Shown here in pieces: positions 29,357-56,697 of a stretch of DNA of 64,000 nt. The position numbers were made by a program, and so were the translations under genes. Position 1 is the first letter of the stretch. Each line of letters begins with the position of its first letter. Source of the DNA: Cohaesibacter intestini (lineage in GTDB: Bacteria; Pseudomonadota; Alphaproteobacteria; Rhizobiales; Cohaesibacteraceae); assembly GCF_003324485.1 (NCBI RefSeq), contig NZ_QODK01000004.1, positions 186,001-250,000 on the forward strand. The letters run 5' to 3'. Below the pieces are notes generated by a model. The model saw nothing but the letters and a program-made list of their open reading frames with translations. It did not search any database and had not been told where the DNA came from.

Positions 29357-32167
29357 ATGGATGATCTGTTACGCGAATTTATCGAGGAAACGAACGAGAG
29401 CCTTGACGTCGTAGACGTTGAGCTGGTGAAGTTCGAGCAAGAACCGAACAATGCTCAGATTCTCGATAATATTTTCCGACTTGTGCATACCATCAAGGGA
29501 ACCTGCGGGTTCCTCGGACTGCCGCGGTTGGAAAGCCTGGCACATGCCGCAGAGACGTTGATGGGCAAGTTCAGGGACGGCGCGCCGGTTACGGGAGAAT
29601 CCGTGTCGGTGATCTTGTTGTCGCTGGATCGTATTAAAGAAATCATGAGCGAGCTTGAAGCGAACGAGGCGGAACCGGATGGCTCGGATGAGGATCTGAT
29701 CGATCAGTTGGATCGACTGGCAGGGGTTGGCAAATATGTCGGCCAGTCCACTGCAGTGGATGCCGCTGAGCCAGCGGAAGACGCCGTAAGCGATACAACT
29801 CCTGTTGAAGCGTCAGCAGCTGAAGAAGGCAAGGACAATGCGCCGGTTGAAGTCTATCAGGTGCTTGAGCGCGAGTTGAAAGCGGGCGAGGTGTCGCTGG
29901 ATGACTTGGAGCGGGCTTTCCGCGAAGCAGACGGCCCTGATGGTTTTGACGTCGCCCAAAGCGCCAAGGAAGCCGCAGAAGAAGCCGTTGCTGATGCCGC
30001 TTCGATGAAGCGTCATGGTAAGATGCCTGCTGCCAAGGCACCTGAAAAGCCGGTTGCTGCCAAGAAGAAGCAAGAGCCGAAGGCTGCTGACAAGGAAACC
30101 AAGTCTGTTGCCAATCAGTCGATCCGCGTCAATGTGGAGACGCTGGAGCATCTGATGACGATGGTGTCCGAGCTGGTGCTGACCCGCAACCAGTTGCTGG
30201 AAATTGTCCGTCGCCACGAAGATTCCGAGTTCAAGGTGCCTCTGCAGCGTCTGTCCAATGTGACCGTGGAATTGCAGGAAGGGGTCATGAAGACCCGGAT
30301 GCAGCCGATCGGCAATGCCTGGCAGAAGCTGCCGCGTATCGTACGCGATCTGGCCAACGACCTGCACAAGGATATCGATCTGGTGATGGTCGGTCAGGAT
30401 ACCGAACTAGACCGTCAAGTTCTGGAACTGATCAAGGATCCGCTCACCCACATGGTGCGCAACTCCGCTGACCATGGTCTTGAAACCTCCGACGAGCGTG
30501 TCGCGATGGGCAAGCCTGTCAAAGGCACCATCAAGCTGTCCGCTTATCACGAAGGTGGCCATATCATCATCGATATCGAAGATGATGGTCGTGGTATCAA
30601 CACCGAGAAGGTGAAAGAAAAGATCCTCAAGAACGAGCTGGCGACCGAAGCCGAGCTCGACAAGATGTCCGAACAGCAGATCAACAAATTCATCTTTGCT
30701 GCTGGCTTCTCCACCGCCGAGAAGGTGACCAATGTCTCAGGTCGCGGCGTTGGCATGGATGTCGTGCGCAACAATATCGAAGTGATCGGTGGCTCGGTTG
30801 ACCTGAAGTCGGTGCCTGGCAAGGGGTCGATCTTCTCGATCAAGATCCCGCTGACGCTGGCCATTGTTTCGACCTTGCTGGTCGAAGCGTCCGGCGATCG
30901 GTTCGCAATCCCTCAGCTGTCCGTTGTTGAGTTGGTGCGTGTCCAGAACAATTCCGAGCACAAGATCGAGCGGATCAAGGATACGCCGGTTCTGCGCTTG
31001 CGCAACAAGCTGCTGCCGCTCATTCATCTGAGCAATCTGCTCGGGATCGAAGAGAAATCCGAAGAAGAGCTCAAGCTGGATGACAATGGCTTTATCGTTG
31101 TCATGCAGGTCGGTGCACAGACCTTCGGCGTCGTGGTTGATGCGGTCTTCCATACCGAGGAAATCGTCGTCAAGCCGATGGCCTCCATGCTGCGGCACCT
31201 GACCATGTTCTCCGGCAACACCATTCTGGGTGACGGGTCGGTGATCATGATCCTCGATCCGAATGGCGTCGCACAGGCCTTTGGCAGCCATGTTGGAACC
31301 GATATGGAAACCAACAAAGAACAGGCTGAGAAGGAAGCCCTGCCGGAAGAGAAGAACACCGTTTCGCTGTTGATCTTCCGTGCCGGCTCCGCAGAACCAA
31401 AGGCGGTTCCGCTGTCGCTCGTCACGCGTCTTGAGGAATTCGAAATCGAGAAGATCGAATTCTCCAATGGTCGCGACATGGTGCAGTATCGTGGTGCCCT
31501 GATGCCACTGGTTCAGGTCAACGACTTCGTTCAGCGCCGGACCGAGGGATCCCAGCCGATGCTGGTCTTCTCCGATGCCGGTCGTTCGATGGGCCTGGTG
31601 GTCGATGAGATCGTCGATATTGTCGACGAGCAGCTCAATATCGAGGTGTCGTCCGAAGTTCCGGGTATCTTGGGTACAGCCGTCATCAAGGGCAAGGCGA
31701 CCGAGATCATCGATGTCGGCCACTTCCTGCCACAGGCCTTCGAGGACTGGTTCCATCGCAAGGAAATGGGCATCGAGGACGTGGTGGCCAAGAAACTGCT
31801 CTTTGTCGACGACTCGAGCTTCTTCCGCAATATGCTCGGCCCGGTCTTCAAGGCAGCTGGTTATGAAGTGACCATTTGTGCGAGTGGCAAGGAAACCCTC
31901 GCCGTACTTGAACGGGATCCGAGCTACGAAATCGTCGTCTCCGATATCGAAATGCCGGAAATGAATGGCTTCGAGCTTTGCGAGGCTATCCGTCGCCAAC
32001 CGGCAACCCGTGATATTCCGATCATCGCCCTGTCATCGCTCTGCACGCCAGCTGCGATCGAACGGGGACGTCAGGCAGGCTTTAACGACTATGTGGCGAA
32101 ATTCGATCGTCCGGGTCTGATTGCTTCTCTGAAAGAACAGCATATTGAACTGGGAGCTGCAGCATGA
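29357..32167 (+). CDS. cheA: Chemotaxis histidine kinase CheA with two CheW-like modules and a C-terminal receiver
   Basis: Central chemotaxis kinase of 936 aa that phosphorylates CheY and CheB. P1 (about 1-110) carries the phospho-histidine in HTIKGTCGF (His44). A long acidic and Ala/Lys linker (about 125-255) follows in place of an obvious P2 domain. Next come dimerisation helices, the ATP domain (HMVRNSADHG, DDGRGIN, GRGVGMDVV), two CheW-like regulatory modules (about 510-650 and 680-805), and a receiver domain (about 812-930) with DD near residue 820, a predicted phospho-Asp near 863 in VVSDIEMPEMNG, and a conserved Lys near the end. The gene overlaps cheW by 4 bp and begins the che operon. 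Confidence 0.96.
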   Translation: MDDLLREFIEETNESLDVVDVELVKFEQEPNNAQILDNIFRLVHTIKGTCGFLGLPRLESLAHAAETLMGKFRDGAPVTGESVSVILLSLDRIKEIMSELEANEAEPDGSDEDLIDQLDRLAGVGKYVGQSTAVDAAEPAEDAVSDTTPVEASAAEEGKDNAPVEVYQVLERELKAGEVSLDDLERAFREADGPDGFDVAQSAKEAAEEAVADAASMKRHGKMPAAKAPEKPVAAKKKQEPKAADKETKSVANQSIRVNVETLEHLMTMVSELVLTRNQLLEIVRRHEDSEFKVPLQRLSNVTVELQEGVMKTRMQPIGNAWQKLPRIVRDLANDLHKDIDLVMVGQDTELDRQVLELIKDPLTHMVRNSADHGLETSDERVAMGKPVKGTIKLSAYHEGGHIIIDIEDDGRGINTEKVKEKILKNELATEAELDKMSEQQINKFIFAAGFSTAEKVTNVSGRGVGMDVVRNNIEVIGGSVDLKSVPGKGSIFSIKIPLTLAIVSTLLVEASGDRFAIPQLSVVELVRVQNNSEHKIERIKDTPVLRLRNKLLPLIHLSNLLGIEEKSEEELKLDDNGFIVVMQVGAQTFGVVVDAVFHTEEIVVKPMASMLRHLTMFSGNTILGDGSVIMILDPNGVAQAFGSHVGTDMETNKEQAEKEALPEEKNTVSLLIFRAGSAEPKAVPLSLVTRLEEFEIEKIEFSNGRDMVQYRGALMPLVQVNDFVQRRTEGSQPMLVFSDAGRSMGLVVDEIVDIVDEQLNIEVSSEVPGILGTAVIKGKATEIIDVGHFLPQAFEDWFHRKEMGIEDVVAKKLLFVDDSSFFRNMLGPVFKAAGYEVTICASGKETLAVLERDPSYEIVVSDIEMPEMNGFELCEAIRRQPATRDIPIIALSSLCTPAAIERGRQAGFNDYVAKFDRPGLIASLKEQHIELGAAA

Positions 32168-32655
32168 CCGAGCAGTTTGTAAACGACGCTGAAGTCGAAA
32201 ACATGGATGAAACCATCCAGTATGTCACCATCTACATTTCCGAACAATTGTTCGGCCTGCCGATCAGCCGGGTCCATGATGTGTTCGTGCCGGAATCCGT
32301 GACACGGGTTCCGCTGTCCCAGACAGAAATCGCTGGGGTTCTGAACCTGCGTGGGCGGATCGTTACGGCCATCGACATGCGCAGGCGGTTGGGGATTCGT
32401 CCTCTGGAAAAACAGTCCAGCATGATGGCGATCGGTATCGAGTTCAAGGAAGAATCTTATGGTCTGATCATCGACTCTGTCGGTGAAGTTCTGGATTTGA
32501 GTGAGAATAGCCGCGAAGCTGTTCCCAGCAATCTGGATCAACGCTGGGCGAGCATCGCTGCCGGGGTCCATCGGCTCGAAAATGACCTGATGGTTATTCT
32601 GGATGTCGATAAGGTGCTCGGTGAAATGGTTACAACCACCACTGTCGCGGCTTAA
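32164..32655 (+). CDS. cheW: Chemotaxis adaptor CheW
   Basis: Couples chemoreceptors to CheA in the polar array. The 163-aa protein has the two SH3-like lobes seen in YVTIYISEQLFGLPISRVHDVFV and GVLNLRGRIVTAIDMRRRLG (the conserved NLRG-I-P/T region), then YGLIIDSVGEVLDL. Start and cheA stop overlap as ATGA. It is a normal single-domain CheW. Confidence 0.95.
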   Translation: MTEQFVNDAEVENMDETIQYVTIYISEQLFGLPISRVHDVFVPESVTRVPLSQTEIAGVLNLRGRIVTAIDMRRRLGIRPLEKQSSMMAIGIEFKEESYGLIIDSVGEVLDLSENSREAVPSNLDQRWASIAAGVHRLENDLMVILDVDKVLGEMVTTTTVAA

Positions 32656-32688
32656 TTGCTGAGATAAAGGTGTCTCTGGAGAGTGAAT

Positions 32689-33054
32689 ATGAAGACGTGT
32701 CTGGTTGTCGACGATTCCAGCGTTATCCGCAAAGTGGCGCGGCGGATTCTCGAAGATCTCGATTTCGAGATTTTGGAAGCAGAAGATGGCAGGGCGGCGC
32801 TGGATAGCTGCGCTGGCAACATGCCTGATGCTGTTCTGCTGGATTGGAACATGCCTGTCATGGACGGCATGGATTTTCTGGTCGAGTTGCGCAAACTCGA
32901 ACGCGGCTCTGACCCGAAAGTGATTTTCTGTACCACGGAAAATGACGTTGCGCATATTGCCAAAGCCATCCGCGCGGGTGCCAACGAATATATCATGAAG
33001 CCGTTTGATCGAGAAATCGTTGAAGCAAAATTGCAGGAAGTCGGACTGATCTGA
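32689..33054 (+). CDS. cheY: Chemotaxis response regulator CheY
   Basis: A single receiver domain of 121 aa; when phosphorylated by CheA it binds the flagellar switch (FliM/FliN). It has the acidic pocket VVDDSS (Asp9-Asp10), the phospho-Asp in LLDWNMPVMDG (about residue 53) and the terminal Lys in YIMKPF. The ATG at 32689 follows CTGGAGAG; a GTG two codons upstream is possible but less likely. Confidence 0.95.
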   Translation: MKTCLVVDDSSVIRKVARRILEDLDFEILEAEDGRAALDSCAGNMPDAVLLDWNMPVMDGMDFLVELRKLERGSDPKVIFCTTENDVAHIAKAIRAGANEYIMKPFDREIVEAKLQEVGLI

Positions 33055-33089
33055 TCCTGCTTTTTGGTCCCTTATGAAAGTTGAATAAC

Positions 33090-34316
33090 ATGGGTCTGAT
33101 GTCCGCAACCGCTCCGGCTGCCAAGGCTGCATCGCGTCAAATCAAGGTGATGATTGTTGACGATTCTGTGGTTATTCGCGGATTGATCAGTCGCTGGGTC
33201 GAGGAAGATCCCGCTCTGGAACTGGTCGGATCGCACCGCAATGGTCGCCTCGCGGTTGAAAATATTGCCAAGAGCAAACCGGACATCGTCGTTCTCGATA
33301 TCGAAATGCCGGATATGGACGGCCTGACAGCTCTGCCACTGTTGTTGCGTGGCTGTCCTTCCACCAAAATCATCATGGCGTCGACATTGACGCGCCGCAA
33401 TGCCGAAATCAGCTTGCGCGCTCTGTCGCTGGGGGCAACCGACTATGTGCCCAAGCCGGAATCGAACAGTGAAATTACAACGTCCAAGAGCTTCCGCAAT
33501 GAGTTGGTCGACAAGATCAAGGCGATTGGCGGCATCGAGGACGGCACTGCACCGACCTTCCGCGCGTCCCGCGGTGGCGCACCTGTCGCAAGGGCAGGGG
33601 GGGCACGGGCACTGCAAAGTCGCAAAACGCTTGCAAGTGAAGGCCCAAGACCGTCTGCTGCTGCGGCGACACCTCGAGCTGCTGCGCCGGTGGCTGGGGC
33701 CAATGGCATCGCCTTGCGCAAGCTTGGATCCGCGCGGCCGCGTGCCTTGCTGATTGGTAGCTCTACGGGAGGGCCACAGGCACTCGAGAAGCTGCTGCAA
33801 GAAATTGGCCCGCAAATGCGGTCCGTCCCTATTCTGATCACCCAGCACATGCCCGCCACTTTCACCGCTATTTTGGCGGACCATCTGGCGCGTGCTTCCG
33901 GCATGCCTTCCGCTGAGGCCAAGGATGGCGAAGTGGTGCAGAACGGGCATATCTATGTGGCGCCGGGCGGCAAGCACATGAAACTTGTCAAACAGGCCGG
34001 GCAAGCGGTCGTCAAATTGACCGATGAGCCGCCTGTCAATTTTTGTAAACCTGCCGTTGATCCATTGTTCGAGACCGCCGCCACCGTTTATGGGTCGGCT
34101 ACTCTGGCAGTGATTTTGACCGGTATGGGACATGATGGCACTGCAGGTGCTCAGTTTATTGTCGATGCGGGTGGCAGTGTTCTGGCTCAGGATCAGGCGA
34201 CCAGCGTTGTTTGGGGTATGCCGGGTGCGGCCGCGAATGCCGGTGTCTGTGCGGCGGTTCTGCCTCTCAACCAGATTGGCTCCAAAGTATTGCGAATTTT
34301 CAAAGGGGAGCGATAA
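33090..34316 (+). CDS. cheB: Protein-glutamate methylesterase CheB
   Basis: Removes methyl groups (and deamidates glutamines) on chemoreceptors for adaptation. A receiver domain (about 20-140, VMIVDDSVVIRG, VVLDIEMPDMDG) is joined by an Ala/Arg-rich linker of about 70 residues to the methylesterase domain with the catalytic triad regions GSSTGGPQAL, TQHMPATFTA and GMGHDGTAG. The stop overlaps the cheR start (TAATG). The linker DNA contains a run of seven G at 33597-33603, a possible slippage site. The ATG at 33090 was chosen over an upstream TTG. Confidence 0.96.
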   Translation: MGLMSATAPAAKAASRQIKVMIVDDSVVIRGLISRWVEEDPALELVGSHRNGRLAVENIAKSKPDIVVLDIEMPDMDGLTALPLLLRGCPSTKIIMASTLTRRNAEISLRALSLGATDYVPKPESNSEITTSKSFRNELVDKIKAIGGIEDGTAPTFRASRGGAPVARAGGARALQSRKTLASEGPRPSAAAATPRAAAPVAGANGIALRKLGSARPRALLIGSSTGGPQALEKLLQEIGPQMRSVPILITQHMPATFTAILADHLARASGMPSAEAKDGEVVQNGHIYVAPGGKHMKLVKQAGQAVVKLTDEPPVNFCKPAVDPLFETAATVYGSATLAVILTGMGHDGTAGAQFIVDAGGSVLAQDQATSVVWGMPGAAANAGVCAAVLPLNQIGSKVLRIFKGER

Positions 34317-35275
34317 TGACACCACAAGACTATGCTTTCTTGCAGGGCTTTTTGAAACAAAAGTCCGGACTTGTGCTCTCTGAAGACAAGCAATATCTGA
34401 TTGAAAGCCGTCTCATGCCTGTCGCGCGCAAAGCCGGGCTTGGGACCATTGCTGATTTGATCGTTAAGCTGCGGTCTTCAGGAGATCGCGCCTTGCAGAC
34501 GGCGGTCGTCGAGGCGATGACCACCAACGAGTCCTTCTTCTTTCGCGACAAAACACCCTTTGAGCATTTCGTCGAAACGATCATTCCGCATTTGGTGCAA
34601 AATCGTCAGCGGGGCCGCGTGCGGATCTGGTGCGCGGCTGCATCAACCGGGCAGGAGCCTTATTCTCTGGCCATGTGCCTGAAGGAAAATGCTGCCAAGC
34701 TTGGTGGTTTGAGCTTCGAGATCATTGGTACCGATATTTCCCATGAAGTGCTGGAGAAGGCCAAAGCTGGCTTCTATACCCAGTTTGAGGTACAGCGCGG
34801 GCTGCCGGTGCAGTTGTTGCTTAAATATTTCAAGCAGCATGGTGAAATGTGGCAGATCTCTCCGGAGATCCGTTCGATGGTCAGCTATCGTCACTTCAAT
34901 CTGCTCGACAGCTTCGCCTCGATGGGTCAGTTTGACGTGATTTTCTGCCGTAACGTGTTGATCTATTTCGATCAGGCAACCAAAACCGATATCATGAACC
35001 GTCTCGCCAAGCAGATGCCAAATGATGGCTATCTATTGCTCGGTGCAGCTGAAACCGTGGTTGGATTGACGACCTCTTTCCAGTCGGTGCCTGGTAAACG
35101 TGGCCTTTATACCAATGCTGCTGGTGCGCAGACTGGCTCTGCCGGTGGATTTGGTCAGCGGGCGCTTGCTGCCGGTGGTAGCCTTTCAGCCCAGTCTTCG
35201 GGTGCTGCGCCGGGCGCGGGCGCATCGACTTTTTCCGCCTCACGCTTTTCAAGCATCAATGGCGGTCGGAAGTAA
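34316..35275 (+). CDS. cheR: Chemotaxis protein methyltransferase CheR
   Basis: SAM-dependent methylation of glutamates on chemoreceptors, opposing CheB. The 319-aa protein has the N-terminal helical domain, NESFFFRDKTPFEHF, the SAM loop RIWCAAASTGQEPYSLAM, IIGTDISHEVLEKAK and VIFCRNVLIYFDQATK. The C-terminal 50 residues are a Gly/Ala/Ser-rich tail not needed for catalysis. The start overlaps the cheB stop. It is the last gene of the che operon; terminators follow at 35303 and 35413. Confidence 0.96.
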   Translation: MTPQDYAFLQGFLKQKSGLVLSEDKQYLIESRLMPVARKAGLGTIADLIVKLRSSGDRALQTAVVEAMTTNESFFFRDKTPFEHFVETIIPHLVQNRQRGRVRIWCAAASTGQEPYSLAMCLKENAAKLGGLSFEIIGTDISHEVLEKAKAGFYTQFEVQRGLPVQLLLKYFKQHGEMWQISPEIRSMVSYRHFNLLDSFASMGQFDVIFCRNVLIYFDQATKTDIMNRLAKQMPNDGYLLLGAAETVVGLTTSFQSVPGKRGLYTNAAGAQTGSAGGFGQRALAAGGSLSAQSSGAAPGAGASTFSASRFSSINGGRK

Positions 35276-35523: not shown

Positions 35524-36225
35524 TTAGGCGCTTTCTCGCATTCCATCTTCATCTGGTTCGCGCAGAACATAGCCGCGGCCCCATACCGTTTCGATATAGT
35601 TGCGGCCGCCGGTCGCGGTTGCGAGCTTCTTGCGCAGTTTGCAGATGAATACGTCGATGATTTTCAGTTCAGGCTCGTCCATGCCACCATAAAGATGGTT
35701 GAGGAACATTTCCTTGGTCAGCGTGGTGCCTTTGCGCAAGGAAAGCAGTTCGAGCATCTGATATTCTTTGCCGGTCAGGTGGACGCGCTGGCCCTGAACT
35801 TCAACAGTTTTGGTGTCGAGATTGACCGTCAATTCGCCGGTGTTGATGACCGACTGGGCATGGCCCTTGGAGCGGCGGACGATCGCATGGATACGTGCCA
35901 CCAGCTCATCCTTGTGGAATGGCTTGGTCATATAGTCGTCAGCGCCAAATCCAAGGCCACGAACCTTGTCTTCAATGCCCGCCAGGCCAGAAAGGATGAG
36001 AATAGGAGTCTTGACCTTGGAGACGCGCAAAGTGCGGAGCACTTCATAGCCGCTCATGTCTGGCAAGTTCAGATCCAGAAGAATAATGTCGTAGTCGTAC
36101 AATTTGCCGAGGTCGACGCCTTCCTCACCAAGATCGGTGGTATAGACATTGAAACTCTCGGACTTGAGCATCAACTCGATGCTCTGTGCTGTGGCGCTAT
36201 CGTCCTCAATTAGCAAAACTCGCAT
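35524..36225 (-). CDS. ctrA: Cell-cycle master response regulator CtrA
   Basis: OmpR-type regulator of 233 aa that controls flagellar, chemotaxis, division and replication genes in Alphaproteobacteria. The receiver has LLIEDD and the phospho-Asp51 ([12 protein letters not shown]), at the same position as in Caulobacter. The winged helix has the nearly invariant [37 protein letters not shown]. The ATG follows AAAGGGG. The protein ends in MRESA, a small hydrophobic tail comparable to ClpXP-recognised CtrA ends. It diverges from fliI across a 368-bp control region with six GANTC sites. Confidence 0.97.
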
Positions 36226-36341
36226 GCCAATCCCCTTTGTTTGCCTTTCCTGGGCTCGGAGCAACCTGCCTTTCTGGCGATTGCTTAGGACCAAATTTCA
36301 TCCCAGTTGTTAAGGCTAGTCCATAATGGTTAACAAATCCT

Positions 36342-36578
36342 GATTCCATCGTGCAAGCCTCGTCTCGTAACTTTACAAAAAAAATGCTATCTCGTTGATT
36401 CCTAGGAAATCTTTTCCTACCAGCTTTCTTAATGTTTTACTTTAAGAAACGTTCTTAAGTGATTCACGAGACTCAGCTACGCAAGCGATTACCCAGCTGG
36501 GAAATATTTGCCGGTCAAAATCCCTCGAGATAATAATTAACCAATCGGGTAAACGAATCATTACCATGCAGTAGAATC
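36342..36578. promoter_or_regulatory. GANTC-rich control region between ctrA and fliI
   Basis: GANTC sites lie at 36342-36346, 36397-36401, 36461-36465, 36470-36474, 36555-36559 and 36574-36578. That is six in 237 bp, where about one is expected by chance. GANTC is the CcrM methylation site, and its state regulates the ctrA promoter through GcrA in Caulobacter. The region also has several TTAA half-sites and a perfect dyad TTAAGAA-ACG-TTCTTAA at 36442-36458. It is AT-rich and holds no gene. Confidence 0.7.
36402..36420. promoter_or_regulatory. Dyad operator candidate shared with the fliF promoter region
   Basis: It contains a perfect 17-bp dyad, TAGGAAA-TCT-TTTCCTA. Extended to 19 bp it matches the element at 52608-52626 at 16 of 19 positions. 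One GANTC site abuts it. Protein unknown. Confidence 0.65.
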
Positions 36579-36593: not shown

Positions 36594-37934
36594 ATGGTCC
36601 AGGAACTTATCGGTAAGGTAGATGACATCTCGCCCAGACACGCCTATGGCCGCGTGACGTCGATTCAAGGGCATCTGGTCGAGGTGGCCGGTCCCTTGTT
36701 CGAAATGAGCGTGGGCTCGATGCTGACGATTCATGCGGATGGACGGGAGCCTGCCAAGTGCGAAGTGGTCGGCTTTTCGACCGATCGGGCCCTGTGTTTG
36801 CCTTTCTCTGAGCTTGATGGCATTCGTCTTGGCTGCCGAGCCGTGCTCAACGGTCCTGCGGTGATCCGGCCCACCAAGGCGTGGTTGGGACGGATGATCA
36901 ATGCCCATGGGGAGCCGATTGATGGTAAGGGTCCCTTGCCCCGCGGCCACCATGCTGTGCCGCTGCGACGCAAGCCACCCGCCGCGCATAAGCGGACCCG
37001 GGTCGGCGGGCCGATGGATCTGGGGGTCAGGGCGCTCAATACCTTCATTACCCTTTGTCAGGGCCAGCGCATGGGCATCTTTGCTGGTTCCGGTGTTGGC
37101 AAGTCGGTGCTGCTTTCGATGTTGGCGCGCAACGCCAGTTCCGAGGTCAATGTGATTGGCCTGATCGGGGAACGCGGGCGCGAGGTGCAGGAGTTTGTCG
37201 AGGATGATCTGGGCGAGGAGGGGCTGAAACGCTCCATCGTCGTGGTGGCCACTTCGGATGAAATGGCCTTGATGCGGCGGCAGGCTGCCTATCTTACTTT
37301 GGCATTGGCCGAGTATTTTCGCGAAGATGGTAAACAGGTTCTTTGTATGATGGACTCGGTCACCCGTTTTGCTCAGGCGCAGCGGGAGATTGGCTTGGCT
37401 GCCGGCGAACCCCCCACCTCTAAGGGCTATACCCCCACAGTCTTCGCAGAACTGCCAAAACTTCTGGAAAGAGCCGGTCCGGGCGAAAAAAATGAGGGAG
37501 CCGTTACAGGTCTTTTTACTGTTTTGGTGGAAGGTGATAACCACAATGAACCCGTTGCTGATGCCGTCCGGGGTATTTTGGATGGACATATCGTCATGGA
37601 ACGGGCCATTGCCGAGAGGGGAAGGTACCCGGCGATAAACATTTTGAAATCTGTTTCGCGTACACTTCCCAATGCTGCCGATCCGGCCTTCTGGCCCAGT
37701 GTGTTGAAGGCCCGGCAGCATATGGCGACCTATTCGGATATGGAAGAGTTGATCCGATTGGGAGCCTACAGGCAGGGAAGCGATCCAAGTGTGGATCTGG
37801 CCATCGCTCTTCATGAGCCTCTGGAAGCATTTCTCTCTCAAGGAAAGGGAGAGGCGACCAGCTTGGAAGAGGGATACCAAAGGCTGGAAGCCATCGTTGG
37901 GGCGCGGTCAGAACAGGGCAATACGGGGCTTTAA
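36594..37934 (+). CDS. fliI: Flagellar export ATPase FliI
   Basis: Hexameric ATPase that powers loading of substrates into the flagellar type III export gate. The 446-aa protein shows the F1-beta-like P-loop [14 protein letters not shown] (about 161-174), [12 protein letters not shown], the Walker [26 protein letters not shown] and the [10 protein letters not shown] segment. The start follows AAAGG. It is the first gene of a short fliI-fliJ unit that diverges from ctrA, and probably shares its control region. Confidence 0.96.
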
Positions 37935-40495: not shown

Positions 40496-41860
40496 ATGGA
40501 AGCGTTGAATGCTCTTGTCAGTTCCATCAACGGAGTCGTCTGGGGACCGTTGATGCTGGTTCTTATCCTAGGGGTTGGCCTGTTTTTGCAGGTGGGTCTG
40601 AAATTTATGCCGATCCTCAAGCTGGGCACCGGCTTCAGTCTGCTGTTCAAGGGGCGCGCCGGGCAGGGGGAAGGGCAGATCAGTCCTTTCAATGCTCTGA
40701 TGACCTCGCTTTCGGCCACTATAGGCACGGGCAACATTGCCGGCGTGGCGACGGCTGTCTTTCTGGGTGGACCCGGCGCTCTGTTCTGGATGTGGATGAC
40801 GGCCCTGATTGGCATGGCAACCAAATATGCCGAGGCCGTTTGCGCCGTCAAATATCGTGAAACCGACGAGTTGGGCAACTTTGTCGGCGGCCCGATGTAT
40901 TACATCAAGAATGGTCTGGGCAAGAATTGGCGCTGGCTGGGCTTTGCCTTTGCCCTGTTCGGTGCGATTGCCGCCTTTGGCATTGGTAATGGTGTGCAGG
41001 CCAATGGTGTGGCGCAGGTGTTGGAAAGCAACTTTGGTGTCAATACATCCGTCACCGGCGTGGTGCTGATGCTGCTGACCGCCATGGTTATTCTGGGGGG
41101 CATCTCCCGCATTGGGGCCGTTGCTGGCAAGCTGGTGCCGTTCATGGCTGTTGCCTATATCATTGCCGGCTTCCTGGTTCTGCTGATCAATATCGGTAAT
41201 ATCGGCGAAGCACTTGGTCTGGTCTTTGCTCATGCCTTCACCCCTTCGGCTGCAGAAGGTGGCTTTGCGGGCGCTGCTGTCTGGGCCGCCATCCGCTTTG
41301 GTGTGGCCCGTGGTGTCTTCTCCAACGAAGCCGGTCTTGGCTCCGCCCCGATCGCCCATGCGGCGGCGGCCACCAAAGGGCCGGTCAACCAAGGTCTGGT
41401 CGCCATGCTGGGCACCTTCATCGACACCATCATTGTTTGCTCGATCACCGGTCTTGCCATCATCTCTTCTGGTGCGTGGACGTCTGGTGAATCCGGAGCG
41501 GCGTTGACCTCGTTGGCTTTTGAAACCACGCTACCGGGCATCGGGGGGACCGTGATTGCGCTGTCGCTTTCGATCTTTGCCTTCACCACCATTCTGGGCT
41601 GGTCCTTCTATGGCGAGAAATGCGTTGGCTATCTGATGGGCCATCGCATCCTGATCGTCTATCGTCTTGCCTGGATCGTGATGATTTATTTCGGCGCAAC
41701 GGCGGATCTTGGTTTCATCTGGCTTCTGGCAGATACGCTCAATGCGATGATGGCCATCCCGAACCTGATCGCTCTGGCTCTGCTCAGCCCGGTTGTGTTC
41801 AAACTGACGCGAGACTATTTCGCAACCAATGGTGCCTCGGAAGAAAATTCGGGCGAGTGA
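40496..41860 (+). CDS. Sodium:alanine symporter (AGCS family)
   Basis: Sodium-coupled uptake of alanine, glycine or related amino acids across the inner membrane. The 454-aa protein has about eleven helices and the family signature GGPMYYIKNGLG, plus FNALMTSLSATIGTGNIAGVATA, FGVARGVFSNEAGLGSAPIAHAAA and FTTILGWSFYGEKC. The length is normal. A hairpin and then a UspA gene follow within 72 bp on the same strand, so partial co-transcription is likely. Confidence 0.94.
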   Translation: MEALNALVSSINGVVWGPLMLVLILGVGLFLQVGLKFMPILKLGTGFSLLFKGRAGQGEGQISPFNALMTSLSATIGTGNIAGVATAVFLGGPGALFWMWMTALIGMATKYAEAVCAVKYRETDELGNFVGGPMYYIKNGLGKNWRWLGFAFALFGAIAAFGIGNGVQANGVAQVLESNFGVNTSVTGVVLMLLTAMVILGGISRIGAVAGKLVPFMAVAYIIAGFLVLLINIGNIGEALGLVFAHAFTPSAAEGGFAGAAVWAAIRFGVARGVFSNEAGLGSAPIAHAAAATKGPVNQGLVAMLGTFIDTIIVCSITGLAIISSGAWTSGESGAALTSLAFETTLPGIGGTVIALSLSIFAFTTILGWSFYGEKCVGYLMGHRILIVYRLAWIVMIYFGATADLGFIWLLADTLNAMMAIPNLIALALLSPVVFKLTRDYFATNGASEENSGE

Positions 41861-47053: not shown

Positions 47054-48427
47054 TTAGCTGGCGATGCGCCCTTCACCCGGTTGCGGGATCGAGACGCCTT
47101 CTTCGGAATATTGCTTCAATTTGTTACGCAGGGTCCGGATGGAAATGCCCAGAATGTTGGCGGCATGGGTCCGGTTACCAAGGCAATGGTCGAGGGTGTC
47201 AAGGATCAGTTCCTGTTCCACTTCGGCGACCGTGCGACCAACGAGATTGCGGGTCACGCCTTCTGCTGCCATCACGGCCTGTGCTGCGGGACCTGAGGCC
47301 ATGCCGATGATGGTCTGATCCATCCGGCTGCCGTCCGGCATACGCAGGGCTTCGGGTCCGATTTCGGTGCCGGTTGCCAACAGAACCGCGCGGTGCATGG
47401 TGTTTTCCAGCTCGCGGACATTGCCTTCCCACTGGTTTGCATGCAAATGGCGGGAGCATTCCGCACTCATCCGGCGCTGTGGCAGGCCATTGGCTTGCGC
47501 ATATTTGTCGGCAAAATGCTCGGCCAACAGGTCGATATCCTGCGGGCGATCACGCAAGGAAGGGATTTGCAGGTTGATGACATTGAGGCGGAACAGCAAA
47601 TCCTCGCGGAAGATGCCCGAACGCACTGCGTCGGCCAGATTGCGGTTGGAGGTGGCAATGATGCGGATGTCGACCGATACCGGTTTTGACCCGCCGACCC
47701 GGTCAATGGTCCGTTCCTGAATGGCACGTAGCAATTTGGCTTGCAGCCGGATATCCATCTCGGAAATCTCGTCGAGCAACAGGGTGCCGCCATTGGCTTC
47801 CTCGAATTTACCGATCCGGCGAGCGACAGCACCCGTGAAGGCGCCTTTTTCGTGACCGAACAGCTCGGACTCGAGCAGATTGTCAGGAATGGCGGCGCAG
47901 TTGACCGAGACGAATGGAGCGGAAGCCCGGCGGGAGTTGGTGTGCAGGTGGCGGGCCAGAACTTCCTTGCCGGTGCCGCTTTCGCCGGTGATCAACACCG
48001 AAGCGTCACTCGGGGCGATCTGGTTGGCCAGCTGAACAACGGCTCCCATGGCCGGGTCGCGATAGATCAGCGCCCCCTGATCCTGCGAGACAGCTTCCAG
48101 AACGGCAGCGATGATGGCCGGATCCGGTGGCAGCGGGATATATTCCTTGGCACCTGCCCGGATGGCATTGACCGCGGCGCGAGCGTCATTTTCGATGCCA
48201 CAGGCGACGACGGGCAGGGTGATGCGTTCGCTTTCCAGATCGGCAATCAGGCTGGCAATGTCGAGCCGGACATCAACCATCATCAGATCTGCACCGCGAC
48301 CGGCCCGCAAATGGCTGAGCGCCATGGCGGTGGTTTCGGCATGGGACACCTGTGCCCCCCGGTCAAGGGCAATCTTGGTGGCCTGGGAAAGCTGACCATT
48401 CAATGTTCCGGCAATCAAAAGGCGCAT
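47054..48427 (-). CDS. flbD: Sigma-54-dependent flagellar regulator FlbD
   Basis: Bacterial enhancer-binding protein of 457 aa that activates sigma-54 flagellar promoters. The N-terminal receiver (1-120) keeps the phospho-Asp position (VDVRL, Asp52) and a Lys (GAKEY) but lacks the acidic pair near residues 6-8 (it reads IAGTL), so it is degenerate. The AAA+ domain has GESGTGKE, the sigma-54 contact loop GAFTGA and a full arginine-finger region, followed by a Fis-type HTH (NRTHAANILGISIRTLRNKL). It is placed between fliN and flhA, as in Caulobacter. A matching promoter is found upstream of fliK. Confidence 0.94.
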   Translation of the reverse strand: MRLLIAGTLNGQLSQATKIALDRGAQVSHAETTAMALSHLRAGRGADLMMVDVRLDIASLIADLESERITLPVVACGIENDARAAVNAIRAGAKEYIPLPPDPAIIAAVLEAVSQDQGALIYRDPAMGAVVQLANQIAPSDASVLITGESGTGKEVLARHLHTNSRRASAPFVSVNCAAIPDNLLESELFGHEKGAFTGAVARRIGKFEEANGGTLLLDEISEMDIRLQAKLLRAIQERTIDRVGGSKPVSVDIRIIATSNRNLADAVRSGIFREDLLFRLNVINLQIPSLRDRPQDIDLLAEHFADKYAQANGLPQRRMSAECSRHLHANQWEGNVRELENTMHRAVLLATGTEIGPEALRMPDGSRMDQTIIGMASGPAAQAVMAAEGVTRNLVGRTVAEVEQELILDTLDHCLGNRTHAANILGISIRTLRNKLKQYSEEGVSIPQPGEGRIAS

Positions 48428-50930: not shown

Positions 50931-52577
50931 TCACGCTGCATCCTGAAGCCATAGACGCACGATCTTGGCAGCTTCTTCAGGGTTTTCTTTGACCAGTTCA
51001 CCAACCTTGAGCAGGGTGTCCATCTGCAGGGCTCCTTGAAGCTGGGCATTCTCGATTGCCTGCATGGTTGGGTGCGGAGTGTCTTCCCCGTCAGGGGCCG
51101 GGACAAGTTCCCCATTCTCACCGACAATCATCGGGACGCCATCTGCGCCAATCACAATGTCCGGACTTGCTTCTTCCTGCTGCTTTTCAAACATCCGCTT
51201 CATCATTGGACGCAGGACGAAGAACAAGATCAACAGGGTCATCAGGAAGAATGTGCCAAGTTCAACCATGCGGATATAGTCATCCTTGGTGAAGGCAAAC
51301 AATTCGTCGCCAGAATCGTCGAAAACTTGCTCCGGCCCTTCGGCGAACTGCATGTTGATGACTTCGATCTTGTCCCCACGGGTCTGGTCGTAGCCAACCG
51401 CAGAGCGAACGAGGGTTGCAATCTTTTCCAGTTGCTCTGGGGTGCGCGGCTTATATTCCAGCTCACCATTGGCATTCTTTTCATAAACACCGTCCACCAG
51501 AACCGCGACCGACAGGCGCTTGATGCGGCCACCCTGAACCACTTCCGTGGTGGTTTTGCGCGAAATCTCGTAATTGACCAGCTCTTCGGTGATGTCGGTG
51601 GCTTCCTGACGACCCGGGCCGTTGGCATTGTTGGCATTGGCGTTGGGCAGTTCGTTGCCGACGGTCACGCCTTCATTGCCTTCCTTTTCCTGACTTTTGG
51701 CGGTTTCGCTGCGGGTCTGGGTTGAGCGAACCACCTGTCCATCGGGATCAAAGGTGTCGGAGGTCTGGGTGATTTTGTTGAAATCCATCTCGGCGGCGAC
51801 CTCGATGCGGGTCCGGCCCTGACCGACGATGGAGGAGACAATGTCTTCGACCTGAGTGCGCAAGTGGCTTTCCATTTCGGTGCGGCGCTCTTCAAGACGG
51901 GTGGAGAGATAATTGTCATCATTGCCACGGCCCGATGCCAACAGACGGCCACGACCGTCGATGATGGTGACATTTTCGGGGTTGAGGCCTTCTACTGCCG
52001 AAGCGACCAGATGCTGGATCGCCTGAATCTGAACCGGGCTCAGATTGCCCTGCAGCTTGACGGCAATGGAGGCGGAGGGCGGTTTCTGCTCGCGCTTGAA
52101 CAGCGCACGCTTGGGCAACACCAGATGGACCCTGGAACTGCGGACATTGCGAATGGTGCGGATCGAACGGGACAGCTCACCTTCCAGCGCCCGCAGGTGG
52201 TTTACATTCTGCACGAAGCTGGTGGTGCCCAGAGTTTCGCTCTTGTCAAAGATTTCATAACCGACATTGCCACCGGTTGGCAGGCCGCTCTCAGCCAGTT
52301 GCATGCGCAGGCGCAGGATCTGCTCCTTTGGTGCCAGAATGACTGCGCCTTCATTGCGCACTTCGTGATTTACATTCTGGGATTCCAGCAATTTGGTGAT
52401 CTGGATGGAATCTTCGAATGACAGGTCGGTATAGAGCGGCGACAGCACGGGCTCGGTCACGCGCATCATGATGAAGGCAAAGAAGCCAATCAGCACAGCG
52501 GTCACAACGCCCATAGCGGCAAGTCTTGCCGGGCCCAATGCCTTGATGAATTCCAAAATGCCGTTCACACCACTCAC
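50931..52577 (-). CDS. fliF: Flagellar MS-ring protein FliF
   Basis: Builds the membrane MS ring. The 548-aa protein has TM1 (about residues 16-38, MGVVTAVLIGFFAFIMM), the RING domains with VLSPLYTDLSFEDSIQITKLLESQN and LPKRALFKREQKPPSASIAVKL, a Gly/Asn-rich periplasmic linker, TM2 (about 435-457, LGTFFLMTLLILFFVLR), and the C-terminal FliG-binding tail ending VRLWLQDAA. It is the first gene of the operon. A CtrA-type box and a dyad shared with the ctrA/fliI region lie just upstream. Confidence 0.97.
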   Translation of the reverse strand: MSGVNGILEFIKALGPARLAAMGVVTAVLIGFFAFIMMRVTEPVLSPLYTDLSFEDSIQITKLLESQNVNHEVRNEGAVILAPKEQILRLRMQLAESGLPTGGNVGYEIFDKSETLGTTSFVQNVNHLRALEGELSRSIRTIRNVRSSRVHLVLPKRALFKREQKPPSASIAVKLQGNLSPVQIQAIQHLVASAVEGLNPENVTIIDGRGRLLASGRGNDDNYLSTRLEERRTEMESHLRTQVEDIVSSIVGQGRTRIEVAAEMDFNKITQTSDTFDPDGQVVRSTQTRSETAKSQEKEGNEGVTVGNELPNANANNANGPGRQEATDITEELVNYEISRKTTTEVVQGGRIKRLSVAVLVDGVYEKNANGELEYKPRTPEQLEKIATLVRSAVGYDQTRGDKIEVINMQFAEGPEQVFDDSGDELFAFTKDDYIRMVELGTFFLMTLLILFFVLRPMMKRMFEKQQEEASPDIVIGADGVPMIVGENGELVPAPDGEDTPHPTMQAIENAQLQGALQMDTLLKVGELVKENPEEAAKIVRLWLQDAA

Positions 52578-52607: not shown

Positions 52608-52648
52608 CTAGGCAATATTTTCCTAGGAGATGGTTAACAAGATGTTAA
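52608..52648 (-). promoter_or_regulatory. fliF control region: shared dyad plus CtrA-type box
   Basis: The dyad CTAGG-CAATATTTT-CCTAG lies at 52608-52626, 31 bp upstream of the fliF start. It is 16/19 identical to the element at 36402-36420. Next to it a CtrA consensus box TTAA-CAAGATG-TTAA occupies 52634-52648 (exact 7-bp spacing), with a third TTAA at 52657-52660. CtrA control of fliF is established in Caulobacter. Confidence 0.75.
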
Positions 52649-54170: not shown

Positions 54171-56537
54171 TCAGATTACCAGATTGACGCCAGTCGACGC
54201 GACATAGCTGCCTGAATGGGTGGGGTGGGTGAGGGATGGTGTAGCCTGTTCCTCGGCGAACCCATCTGACTTGGTGCTTGAGCCGAAATTTTCCTGCTCC
54301 ATGGCTTGTTGCTGGTCATGAGCCATCTGTTGGCCACTATCCTGCTGATCCATTAGCGAAAATTCGAGGCCTTGTTTGTCGAGATTAAGGCCGCTTTGCA
54401 GCAGGCTGCGTTCCATCATCCGCTGGTCACGCATGAACATGTCGAGGGTCTCGGGCCGTTCGACAAACAGATGTGCCCGGGTCTGACCATCCGAGCCAAT
54501 GGTCAGGCGGACATCGACCTTGCCCAGATCCGCCGGGTCAAGGCGGATTTCGAAGCGGGTTTCACCACGCATGGCGAATTTGGAAATCTGGGCGGCCATG
54601 GCCTGTGCGTTGGCAGCTGCCGCCTGTTGCGGCACATGGCCGGTCCGGGCAAAGTTTTCCATGCCGGTCAGGCGCACGGTGGAGCCGTCACCCTGTATCG
54701 GGGTCATGCCGTCGACCTTCAATGTCGGGTCAGACTGCATAGCCATATCCTTGAGACCTGCCTGATTGTCGATTCCTGCCATCATTTTGGTGAAGGCATC
54801 GGCTTTCGGGGCCTGACGCAGTGTGCCGCTTTCCACCGATGCCACGGTCAGAGGATTGACCGTTTTCGGGCGTGCGGGTTCGTCACCGGCATCCGCATCG
54901 GCGTTGGCCGTGTCATCGGACGCCGTCGTTTGCTGTGGGTCGTTGGTGACCTGCTCTGCGCCCTTGCGGCCTTGGGTCATGGCGTTGAGAGCAGCCTGAG
55001 TCTGGCTTTGCTGAGCCTCCGGCGTGGCTGACTGCTTCGTCGTGCTGGCAGCCTGATCAGTGCGCTCAGAGACAGGAGCGTCCTGCTGTGCAGACTGAGG
55101 CTGAGTTGACGATGGTGTCTGTTGCTGGGTGACCTGCGGGCTGTCTTCATGCTGCTGTATGGTCACCATCTTGGCCAGAGCATCTGCTGATTGATCAGAC
55201 GATGCCTCGCCAGTCTCCGTCTGTGGTTGAGACTGGGCAGTGTCGATCGAAACGGTTTCACCCGTGACGGTCTGGACCTGATGGCTGCTGACCGATTGGC
55301 TCACCGGTTCTGCGATGGCGTCAGATAGAGGGGCCTGTGCCAGTTCGGTCTGTACGGGATCGATTGGCGCTGGGGTAACCTGCTGTCCATCTGCGTCCAG
55401 CACGGGTTGGGCTTGGATATTTGCCTTTCCCTCGGTGTCAGCCTGTTCGGTCGCTGGTTGTTGTCCTGTTGTCTGGGCGCTGGCGTCTTGCGTGGTCGGA
55501 GAGGCACCGGCTTTGGTCGTGGCAACCAGTTCGGCGGCTTTCGCTGCGGATTCTTCGTTTGCCGGTTGCTGTGGCGTGCTCTCACCAGTCAATCCATCGG
55601 CAAGGCCAGACGGTGCTTGCCCTTCGGAGGCCTGCGAAGAGGCGAGCTGCGGCGTTGTTACCGGGTCGATGGTCGGGGTTTGGGCCGCATTCTGAGATGT
55701 ACTCAGGGGCGCGTTGAGGGCCGCATTCTGGGTCACCGTCTGGGTAGAAGCCTGATCCGCATCCTGACTTGCGGGCTGGGCCGCATTTGCCACAGTGGTC
55801 TGCTGGCCTGTTGCGCCTGTCCCTGTCTGCTCCGAAGCAGCAATGTTGGCGTTAGCTGCATCATTCAACGCCTGTGCCAGTGCATCGGCAGATTGGCCAG
55901 CATCGGGAGCATTGGGTGTCTGAGCAGCTGCCGGTTGGGCCGCCAATGTGAGGTCCGGCTGTGAGCCTTCGGCCTGCTCTTTGACCACTGCATCAGTGTC
56001 AGGCTTGTCATTTGATGTGGGCGTCTCGTCGGACTGCGCTGTCGGGCGCGGCTGTGATTGATCCGTGCCTGATGGGGCCGCATCCGTTTTGCGTGCCTCA
56101 TTGGCCTCTGTCCGTGGCTGATCCGAAGCGTCTGGACGCGTGTTGGCGGTTCTGGTGTCTTGCGCTGGCGCTTCCGTGCTGGCCTTTTCATTTGGTCGCG
56201 TGTCTGGACGGGTATCTGGACGGGTATCTGGCCGTGTGTCCTGCGCGGCAGTCCGGACCCCTTCATCCGCACGTGCACGCCGTGCCTCGGCCCGCTCATT
56301 GTGGGCGCGATCATTCTGTGCACGGATATCCTGTGCGCGCGCATCCTGAGCACGTTCATTGCGCTCGAATGCTTGCCGGTCTTCGCGTTGCAGGGAGGCC
56401 TCGCGCCGGTCCTGATTGCGCAAATGGCTCTCGAAACTGGACGCGGATGCATCCTGTTTTGGGGAAGACTGTTTGTTCGCAGCCGGATTGGTCGGAGCTG
56501 TGAACGGGTCTGAAATGACGGAATACTGAGATACCAT
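54171..56537 (-). CDS. fliK: Flagellar hook-length control protein FliK
   Basis: Molecular ruler for the hook and export-specificity switch. The ATG at 56537 follows AGGACAGG and gives 788 aa. The first 580 residues or so are low-complexity (Gln, Ala, Thr, Asp, Pro), including a run of RPDT repeats near residues 100-115. The conserved FliK C-terminal domain is about 625-730 (RGETRFEIRLDPADLGKVDVRLTIGSDGQTRAHLFVERPETLDMF). It is unusually long compared with enteric FliK (405 aa); ruler length often varies. It is first in the fliK-flgD unit. Confidence 0.92.
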   Translation of the reverse strand: MVSQYSVISDPFTAPTNPAANKQSSPKQDASASSFESHLRNQDRREASLQREDRQAFERNERAQDARAQDIRAQNDRAHNERAEARRARADEGVRTAAQDTRPDTRPDTRPDTRPNEKASTEAPAQDTRTANTRPDASDQPRTEANEARKTDAAPSGTDQSQPRPTAQSDETPTSNDKPDTDAVVKEQAEGSQPDLTLAAQPAAAQTPNAPDAGQSADALAQALNDAANANIAASEQTGTGATGQQTTVANAAQPASQDADQASTQTVTQNAALNAPLSTSQNAAQTPTIDPVTTPQLASSQASEGQAPSGLADGLTGESTPQQPANEESAAKAAELVATTKAGASPTTQDASAQTTGQQPATEQADTEGKANIQAQPVLDADGQQVTPAPIDPVQTELAQAPLSDAIAEPVSQSVSSHQVQTVTGETVSIDTAQSQPQTETGEASSDQSADALAKMVTIQQHEDSPQVTQQQTPSSTQPQSAQQDAPVSERTDQAASTTKQSATPEAQQSQTQAALNAMTQGRKGAEQVTNDPQQTTASDDTANADADAGDEPARPKTVNPLTVASVESGTLRQAPKADAFTKMMAGIDNQAGLKDMAMQSDPTLKVDGMTPIQGDGSTVRLTGMENFARTGHVPQQAAAANAQAMAAQISKFAMRGETRFEIRLDPADLGKVDVRLTIGSDGQTRAHLFVERPETLDMFMRDQRMMERSLLQSGLNLDKQGLEFSLMDQQDSGQQMAHDQQQAMEQENFGSSTKSDGFAEEQATPSLTHPTHSGSYVASTGVNLVI

Positions 56538-56571
56538 ACCTGTCCTCATTGCGCAGTGTCTGATCTAAGTA

Positions 56572-56587
56572 TTCAAGAATTGTGCCA
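56572..56587 (-). promoter_or_regulatory. Sigma-54 promoter for fliK-flgD
   Basis: The reverse strand reads TGGCAC-AATTC-TTGAA, a strong match to the -24/-12 consensus TGGCAC-N5-TTGCW (only the final C differs). Transcription would start about 25 bp before the fliK ATG. FlbD, a sigma-54 activator, is encoded in the same island. Confidence 0.75.
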
Positions 56588-56653: not shown

Positions 56654-56697
56654 CTTGGCAGGTCAAAAACTGCCGGGGCTTGGCAAAAACTGCCGGG
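56654..56697. repeat. Tandem direct repeat, likely activator (FlbD) binding sites
   Basis: Two copies of CTTGGC...AAAAACTGCCGGG occur: 56654-56677 (with a 4-nt insertion) and 56679-56697. The AAAAACTGCCGGG part is repeated exactly 20 bp apart, two helical turns. The second copy is a partial dyad (TTGGCA/TGCCGG). It lies about 70-125 bp upstream of the sigma-54 promoter, the usual enhancer distance. Confidence 0.65.

Follow-up and report, generated by a model that had tools for sequence, protein, structure and literature searches.

A dyad repeated at the ctrA/fliI and fliF control regions of Cohaesibacter intestini is most likely an FlbD site

The dyad that recurs in flagellar and cell-cycle control regions of Cohaesibacter intestini is most likely a docking site of the ftr type for FlbD, a known flagellar regulator. 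We hold it to be highly probable that the dyads are FlbD sites of this type, with repression at fliF, a layout for activation at fliK and a genus-specific pair between ctrA and fliI. This last pair is the new part, and it suggests a genus-specific input of FlbD to ctrA, fliI or both. The features concerned lie in one window, by which we mean the whole 64 kb stretch of DNA analysed:

35524-36225, minus strand: ctrA
36402-36420: dyad 1 of the ctrA/fliI gap (17-bp core unit 36403-36419), matrix score 18.4
36498-36514: dyad 2 of the ctrA/fliI gap, TGGGAAATATTTGCCGG, matrix score 18.3, from the alignment of 17 congeners
36594-37934, plus strand: fliI
47054-48427, minus strand: flbD, candidate dyad binder (Pfam: weak receiver, sigma-54 AAA+ and Fis-type HTH domains)
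50931-52577, minus strand: fliF, at the head of the operon containing flbD
52608-52626: fliF dyad, 8 bp past the CtrA box when read towards fliF, matrix score 23.2
52634-52648, minus strand: TTAA-N7-TTAA resembling a CtrA box, upstream of the fliF dyad, as read from the letters
54171-56549, minus strand: fliK (Pfam Flg_hook)
56572-56587, minus strand: sigma-54-like promoter TGGCACAATTCTTGAA before fliK
56660-56676 and 56680-56696, minus strand: two tandem dyads upstream of fliK

A rare dyad and its place at fliF

An initial annotation of this DNA had reported two 19-bp dyads, one at each control region, and re-reading the letters confirmed that both are real and lie where it had put them: CTAGGAAATCTTTTCCTAC at 36402-36420 and CTAGGCAATATTTTCCTAG at 52608-52626, alike at 16 of 19 positions. 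The flanking genes are likewise CtrA, FliI and FliF as it had named them, and the CtrA of the window is 97% identical to the CtrA of a Cohaesibacter MAG. The window contains the pattern TAGG-N9-CCTA twice, where 0.08 occurrences would be expected; none of 100 dinucleotide shuffles reached two. Scanning the whole 4.79 Mb genome for it, as the annotation had proposed, gave only four places rather than many random copies, and the centres of the other two are unrelated. When a merged 19-mer was allowed up to 3 mismatches, both dyads were found as exact matches together with two places at 3 mismatches; no further place in the genome matched the shared 19-mer with 2 mismatches or fewer. The dyad is best described as a 17-bp unit with the core GG-n-AA-n3-TT-n-CC. 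That it is not a CtrA box, as had been stated, was borne out: TTAA is absent from both 19-mers, and TTAA-N7-TTAA, which we take to be the CtrA box consensus, adjoins the fliF dyad without being part of either dyad.

All 18 genomes of the genus, counting that of the window, share the fliF 17-mer letter for letter. Across the genus, the letters flanking the fliF and ctrA/fliI dyads vary while the dyads stay. Conservation in relatives, the lack of which would have counted against the annotation, is genus-wide at both loci. The spacing from the CtrA-like box also recurs: by a simple rule, the last TTAA or TTTA lies exactly 8 bp before the dyad in 12 of 22 fliF promoters, and reading the rows added L141, as well as L236 with CTAA. 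In L191 the dyad is upstream, not downstream, of the CtrA-like box. A Caulobacter sp. fliF promoter carries TGGGTAAATCCTGCCTA at the same place after a CtrA-like box. If the CtrA box is at -35, which we assume from Caulobacter, the fliF dyad would cover the -10 region, which fits repression. Of the 18 genomes of the genus, 12 have a second fliF, about 31% identical and part of a second flagellar system, whereas the genome of the window carries just one; the three second copies that were read (L146, L147 and L148) are without the dyad.

Association of the dyad with FlbD

The fliF operon runs fliF, fliG, a fliH-like gene, fliN and then flbD, whose product is, as judged from its sequence, FlbD. 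Among 20 named genomes, 12 gave orthologues, 13 genes in all, whose products are 65-72% identical to it; the 12 include Roseibium, Devosia, Caulobacter, Brevundimonas, Phenylobacterium and Hyphomonadaceae, and a fliF gene lies upstream of the orthologue in 12 of the 13 stretches, the thirteenth being only 394 bases long. An HTH stretch, GNRTHAA-x-ILGISIRTLRNKL, is the same in all seven FlbD C-termini that were read. The genome also encodes FliX, the partner of FlbD (PF10768, E 3.6e-32, 114 bits against a cut-off of 25); among 14 control genomes, this family matched in Caulobacter only. In the available parts of PMC3930126 and PMC3096577, FlbD is described as binding ftr4 at fliF and repressing fliF, and as activating later flagellar genes under the control of FliX.

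If FlbD is the binder, the dyad should travel with it, and we compared one fliF promoter per lineage, 23 from FlbD-bearing operons and 20 controls. The controls comprised 6 fliF genes of second systems in FlbD-bearing genomes and, from genomes without an FlbD-level match, 14 more; sites were chosen from all promoters, and scoring was leave-one-out. Seventeen congeners were collapsed into the window's row, and L142 (whose contig starts inside fliF), L183 (394 bases) and the partial fliF matches L253-L255 were omitted. Scores of 13.2-23.1 were obtained for 22 of the 23 FlbD-bearing promoters and for none of the 20 controls, the best of which reached 11.0 (L145) and the next 4.5. The one miss, L185 (Brevundimonas SSC2), has a motif that is seemingly one base shorter. 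In 860 shuffles, 1% scored above 9.2 and the best was 14.0; the positives at 13.2 and 13.8, the two lowest, are therefore not beyond chance when taken alone. The fliF promoter of L234 scored 22.7, and those of Tardiphaga and Methylobacterium, both outside the 17-site matrix described below, scored 20.6 and 17.4. FlbD was found in Tardiphaga, Methylobacterium and Bradyrhizobium, and in none of nine other genomes searched. These data yield a candidate FlbD motif that may be usable across Alphaproteobacteria.

The initial annotation had left two options, an undescribed shared regulator or an element recognised by a known one. One shared regulator is supported, and a flagellar activator, which FlbD is, had been among the candidates named. 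An undescribed regulator is not supported, as the fliF dyad tracks FlbD-bearing operons and FlbD at fliF is already in print (the accessible portion of PMC3930126). The arrangement resembles that of Caulobacter ftr4, at which repression of fliF by FlbD is described (PMC3930126 and PMC3096577, each in part): flbD in the fliF operon, FliX, and a CtrA box followed by the site. Here, however, the outer letters are A+T-rich (TAGG/CCTA); the likeness that we draw concerns the arrangement, and FlbD binding and repression are what we infer from sequence.

The dyads might instead be bound by another dimeric regulator, whose gene lies elsewhere or within the same operon family, with FlbD only travelling alongside that regulator. 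The co-occurrence is also compatible with another operon partner, because FlbD and this fliF are co-inherited and the controls are distant copies; it does not separate FlbD from other genes inherited together with the operon. We nevertheless regard such a binder as unlikely. FlbD alone has a DNA-binding family match among the scanned proteins of the fliF-flhA stretch, it is known both at fliF and at flagellar promoters of the sigma-54 type (in the available text of PMC3096577 and PMC3930126), and the dyads sit at exactly those two kinds of promoter.

The best named rival is NtrX, whose HTH is related to that of FlbD, and we rate it a step less probable again. According to the portion of PMC9223101 that is available, NtrX binds ctrA promoter DNA of S. 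meliloti, lowers ctrA expression and recognises palindromic CAAN2-5TTG. The variant CAA-N3-TTG does lie inside many of the GC-rich versions of the dyad, in 7 of 20 listed fliF sites, but GG/CC is present in 20 of 20 (in a list partly picked by GG/CC), and CAAN2-5TTG is absent from either strand of both 19-mers of the window. Moreover, the 13 control fliF promoters from genomes without FlbD, S. meliloti's genus included, score at most 4.5.

A pair of sites between ctrA and fliI

The gap between ctrA and fliI holds a second, weaker dyad that the initial annotation had missed; in the window it lies 95 bp from dyad 1, towards fliI. Seventeen further genomes of the genus were compared; G008 was without a matching fliI, and the count omits L033, in which no ctrA start was found. 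Both sites are present in all 17 congeners with a readable gap, 94-95 bp apart and every one with a score of at least 15.2. A plain pattern skipped L025 and the first site of L012, and the matrix recovered both. Mean column identity is 0.91 for site 1 and 0.85 for site 2 against 0.75 between them, and the core GG, first A, last T and CC are invariant in both sites across the congeners. Two other blocks of the gap, 36322-36350 and 36528-36572, exceed the dyads in conservation (mean identity 0.96 and 0.93); they contain TTAACC and GANTC-like letters and are probably the ctrA and fliI promoters.

Outside the genus, the pair was found in none of 19 FlbD-bearing genomes, against 17 of 17 congeners. 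No comparable site was seen in the ctrA/fliI gap of seven FlbD-bearing genomes of other genera (L026-L032, which include the one sister-genus genome available; best score 8.7). In 12 FlbD-bearing genomes from other families, the 600 bp before ctrA held none either (best score 8.8). It thus looks as if the pair was gained in this genus, with one sister-genus genome compared. As the fliF site spans families and the ctrA/fliI pair was seen in this genus only, the pattern looks like a recent rewiring of a known regulator.

Site 1 is about 175-180 bp from either start codon, and its position therefore does not reveal whether ctrA or fliI is the target. On the ctrA side of the window, a TTAA is followed by site 1 at 9 bp; the two TTAA there are spaced by 9 rather than 7, which makes a ctrA promoter at that place a guess. 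No sigma-54 promoter was seen by eye at the pair, which sets it apart from the ftr sites of Caulobacter middle genes, and a stricter sigma-54 pattern found a single site across the window, at 41215, away from the pair. Repression at ctrA/fliI is likelier than activation because no sigma-54 promoter was seen there.

CtrA turns on the early flagellar genes; together with FliX, FlbD reports that an early structure has been built. We propose that FlbD, a product of the fliF operon, would bind the fliF site after completion of the early basal body, as reported through FliX, and would there shut off CtrA-driven transcription of fliF. FlbD probably holds the two ctrA/fliI sites as a cooperative pair, the spacing of 94-95 bp being close to nine helical turns, and the DNA between them may be looped. 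Bound there, it would most likely repress fliI, ctrA or both. A narrower proposal, which we put forward tentatively and consider somewhat doubtful, is that FlbD in Cohaesibacter acts directly on ctrA transcription: the two sites would serve as operators in helical phase and close a repression loop, as a genus-specific feedback. If this is true, completion of the early flagellar base would turn down CtrA, the very regulator that started it, and an FlbD pair at ctrA would close the loop of flagellar assembly onto the cell-cycle regulator itself. No FlbD-ctrA link in print was found in the open-licence literature, among the matches listed. In S. meliloti, CtrA only weakly activates its own P1 promoter, and other regulators are still being sought, according to the available part of PMC4433202.

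Sites at fliK and elsewhere in the genome

Two tandem dyads, 20 bp apart, precede fliK; they start 109 and 89 bp before TGGCACAATTCTTGAA. In standing as a tandem pair some 90-110 bp ahead of a sigma-54-like promoter, the fliK sites resemble the FlbD/sigma-54 enhancers (ftr sites) of Caulobacter middle genes, and they appear to be laid out for activation by FlbD; here the -12 element is TTGAA rather than TTGC. The single fliK sites score 14.7 and 9.0, and 14.7 alone is not above the Markov null given below. Of 13 relatives compared at fliK, 5 have both the pair and the promoter in readable form, and a sixth has a weaker version. L210 gave no match, the stretches of L212, L213 and L215 end short of the upstream sites, and L216, L217 and L219 have no sigma-54 motif at fliK. 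Among 14 places in the genome with TGGCAC-N5-TTGAA, only the one before fliK has a dyad scoring at least 14 within 200 bp; for TGGCAC-N5-TTGCW, also with 14 places, one does (L199, score 16.1, 193 bp downstream). Beyond fliK, these scans for perfect-consensus promoters tell little about the dyad.

Two further flagellar control regions outside the window carry the dyad. In one (L259:3991-4105), a CtrA box is followed at 8 bp by a site scoring 23.2; this site precedes a gene that we read as flgB and that has flhB and fliR (by Pfam) downstream. A weaker site lies 98 bp from the flgB-like one, towards a fliO-like gene whose Pfam match is just below the cut-off. In the other (L259:13815-13930), fliL and a flgF-like gene have a site scoring 17.9 between them, with a sigma-54-like motif about 100 bp away.

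To place these sites against the rest of the sequence, we used a matrix whose 17 training sites come from fliF in other genera. Scanned over the 64 kb window, it ranked 52609 first (23.2), 36403 second (18.4) and 36498 third (18.3), and the best score among 30 first-order Markov sequences was 15.55. The matrix is not fully independent of the window's dyads, because its training sites were chosen by their match to the GG-AA-TT-CC core. Scores of at least 14 were reached at 12 places in 164 kb (the window and five stretches of the genome). Six are those at fliF, ctrA/fliI (two), fliK, flgB and fliL/flgF; three are inside coding ORFs, at 29463 (a cheA-like gene), L259:17252 and L260:5285; and the rest are L261:101 (17.0), L262:6870 (14.2) and L263:8606 (15.1).

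That the dyads are a chance resemblance or a transcript hairpin with no shared protein is scarcely credible: perfect dyads can fold and strong matrix matches occur within coding sequence too, but the shuffles never gave two dyads, both loci are kept across the genus amid changing neighbouring letters, and sites of this kind also occur ahead of a sigma-54-like promoter, where they would be part of no leader.

A more degenerate pattern was also tried on the whole genome and was dropped, as it gave 220 places, fewer than the 418 of its reversed control. The match at L261:101-117 (score 17.0) lies immediately past the window's right end. Chemotaxis genes (cheA-like, cheW and cheR by Pfam) at 29357-35275 adjoin ctrA.
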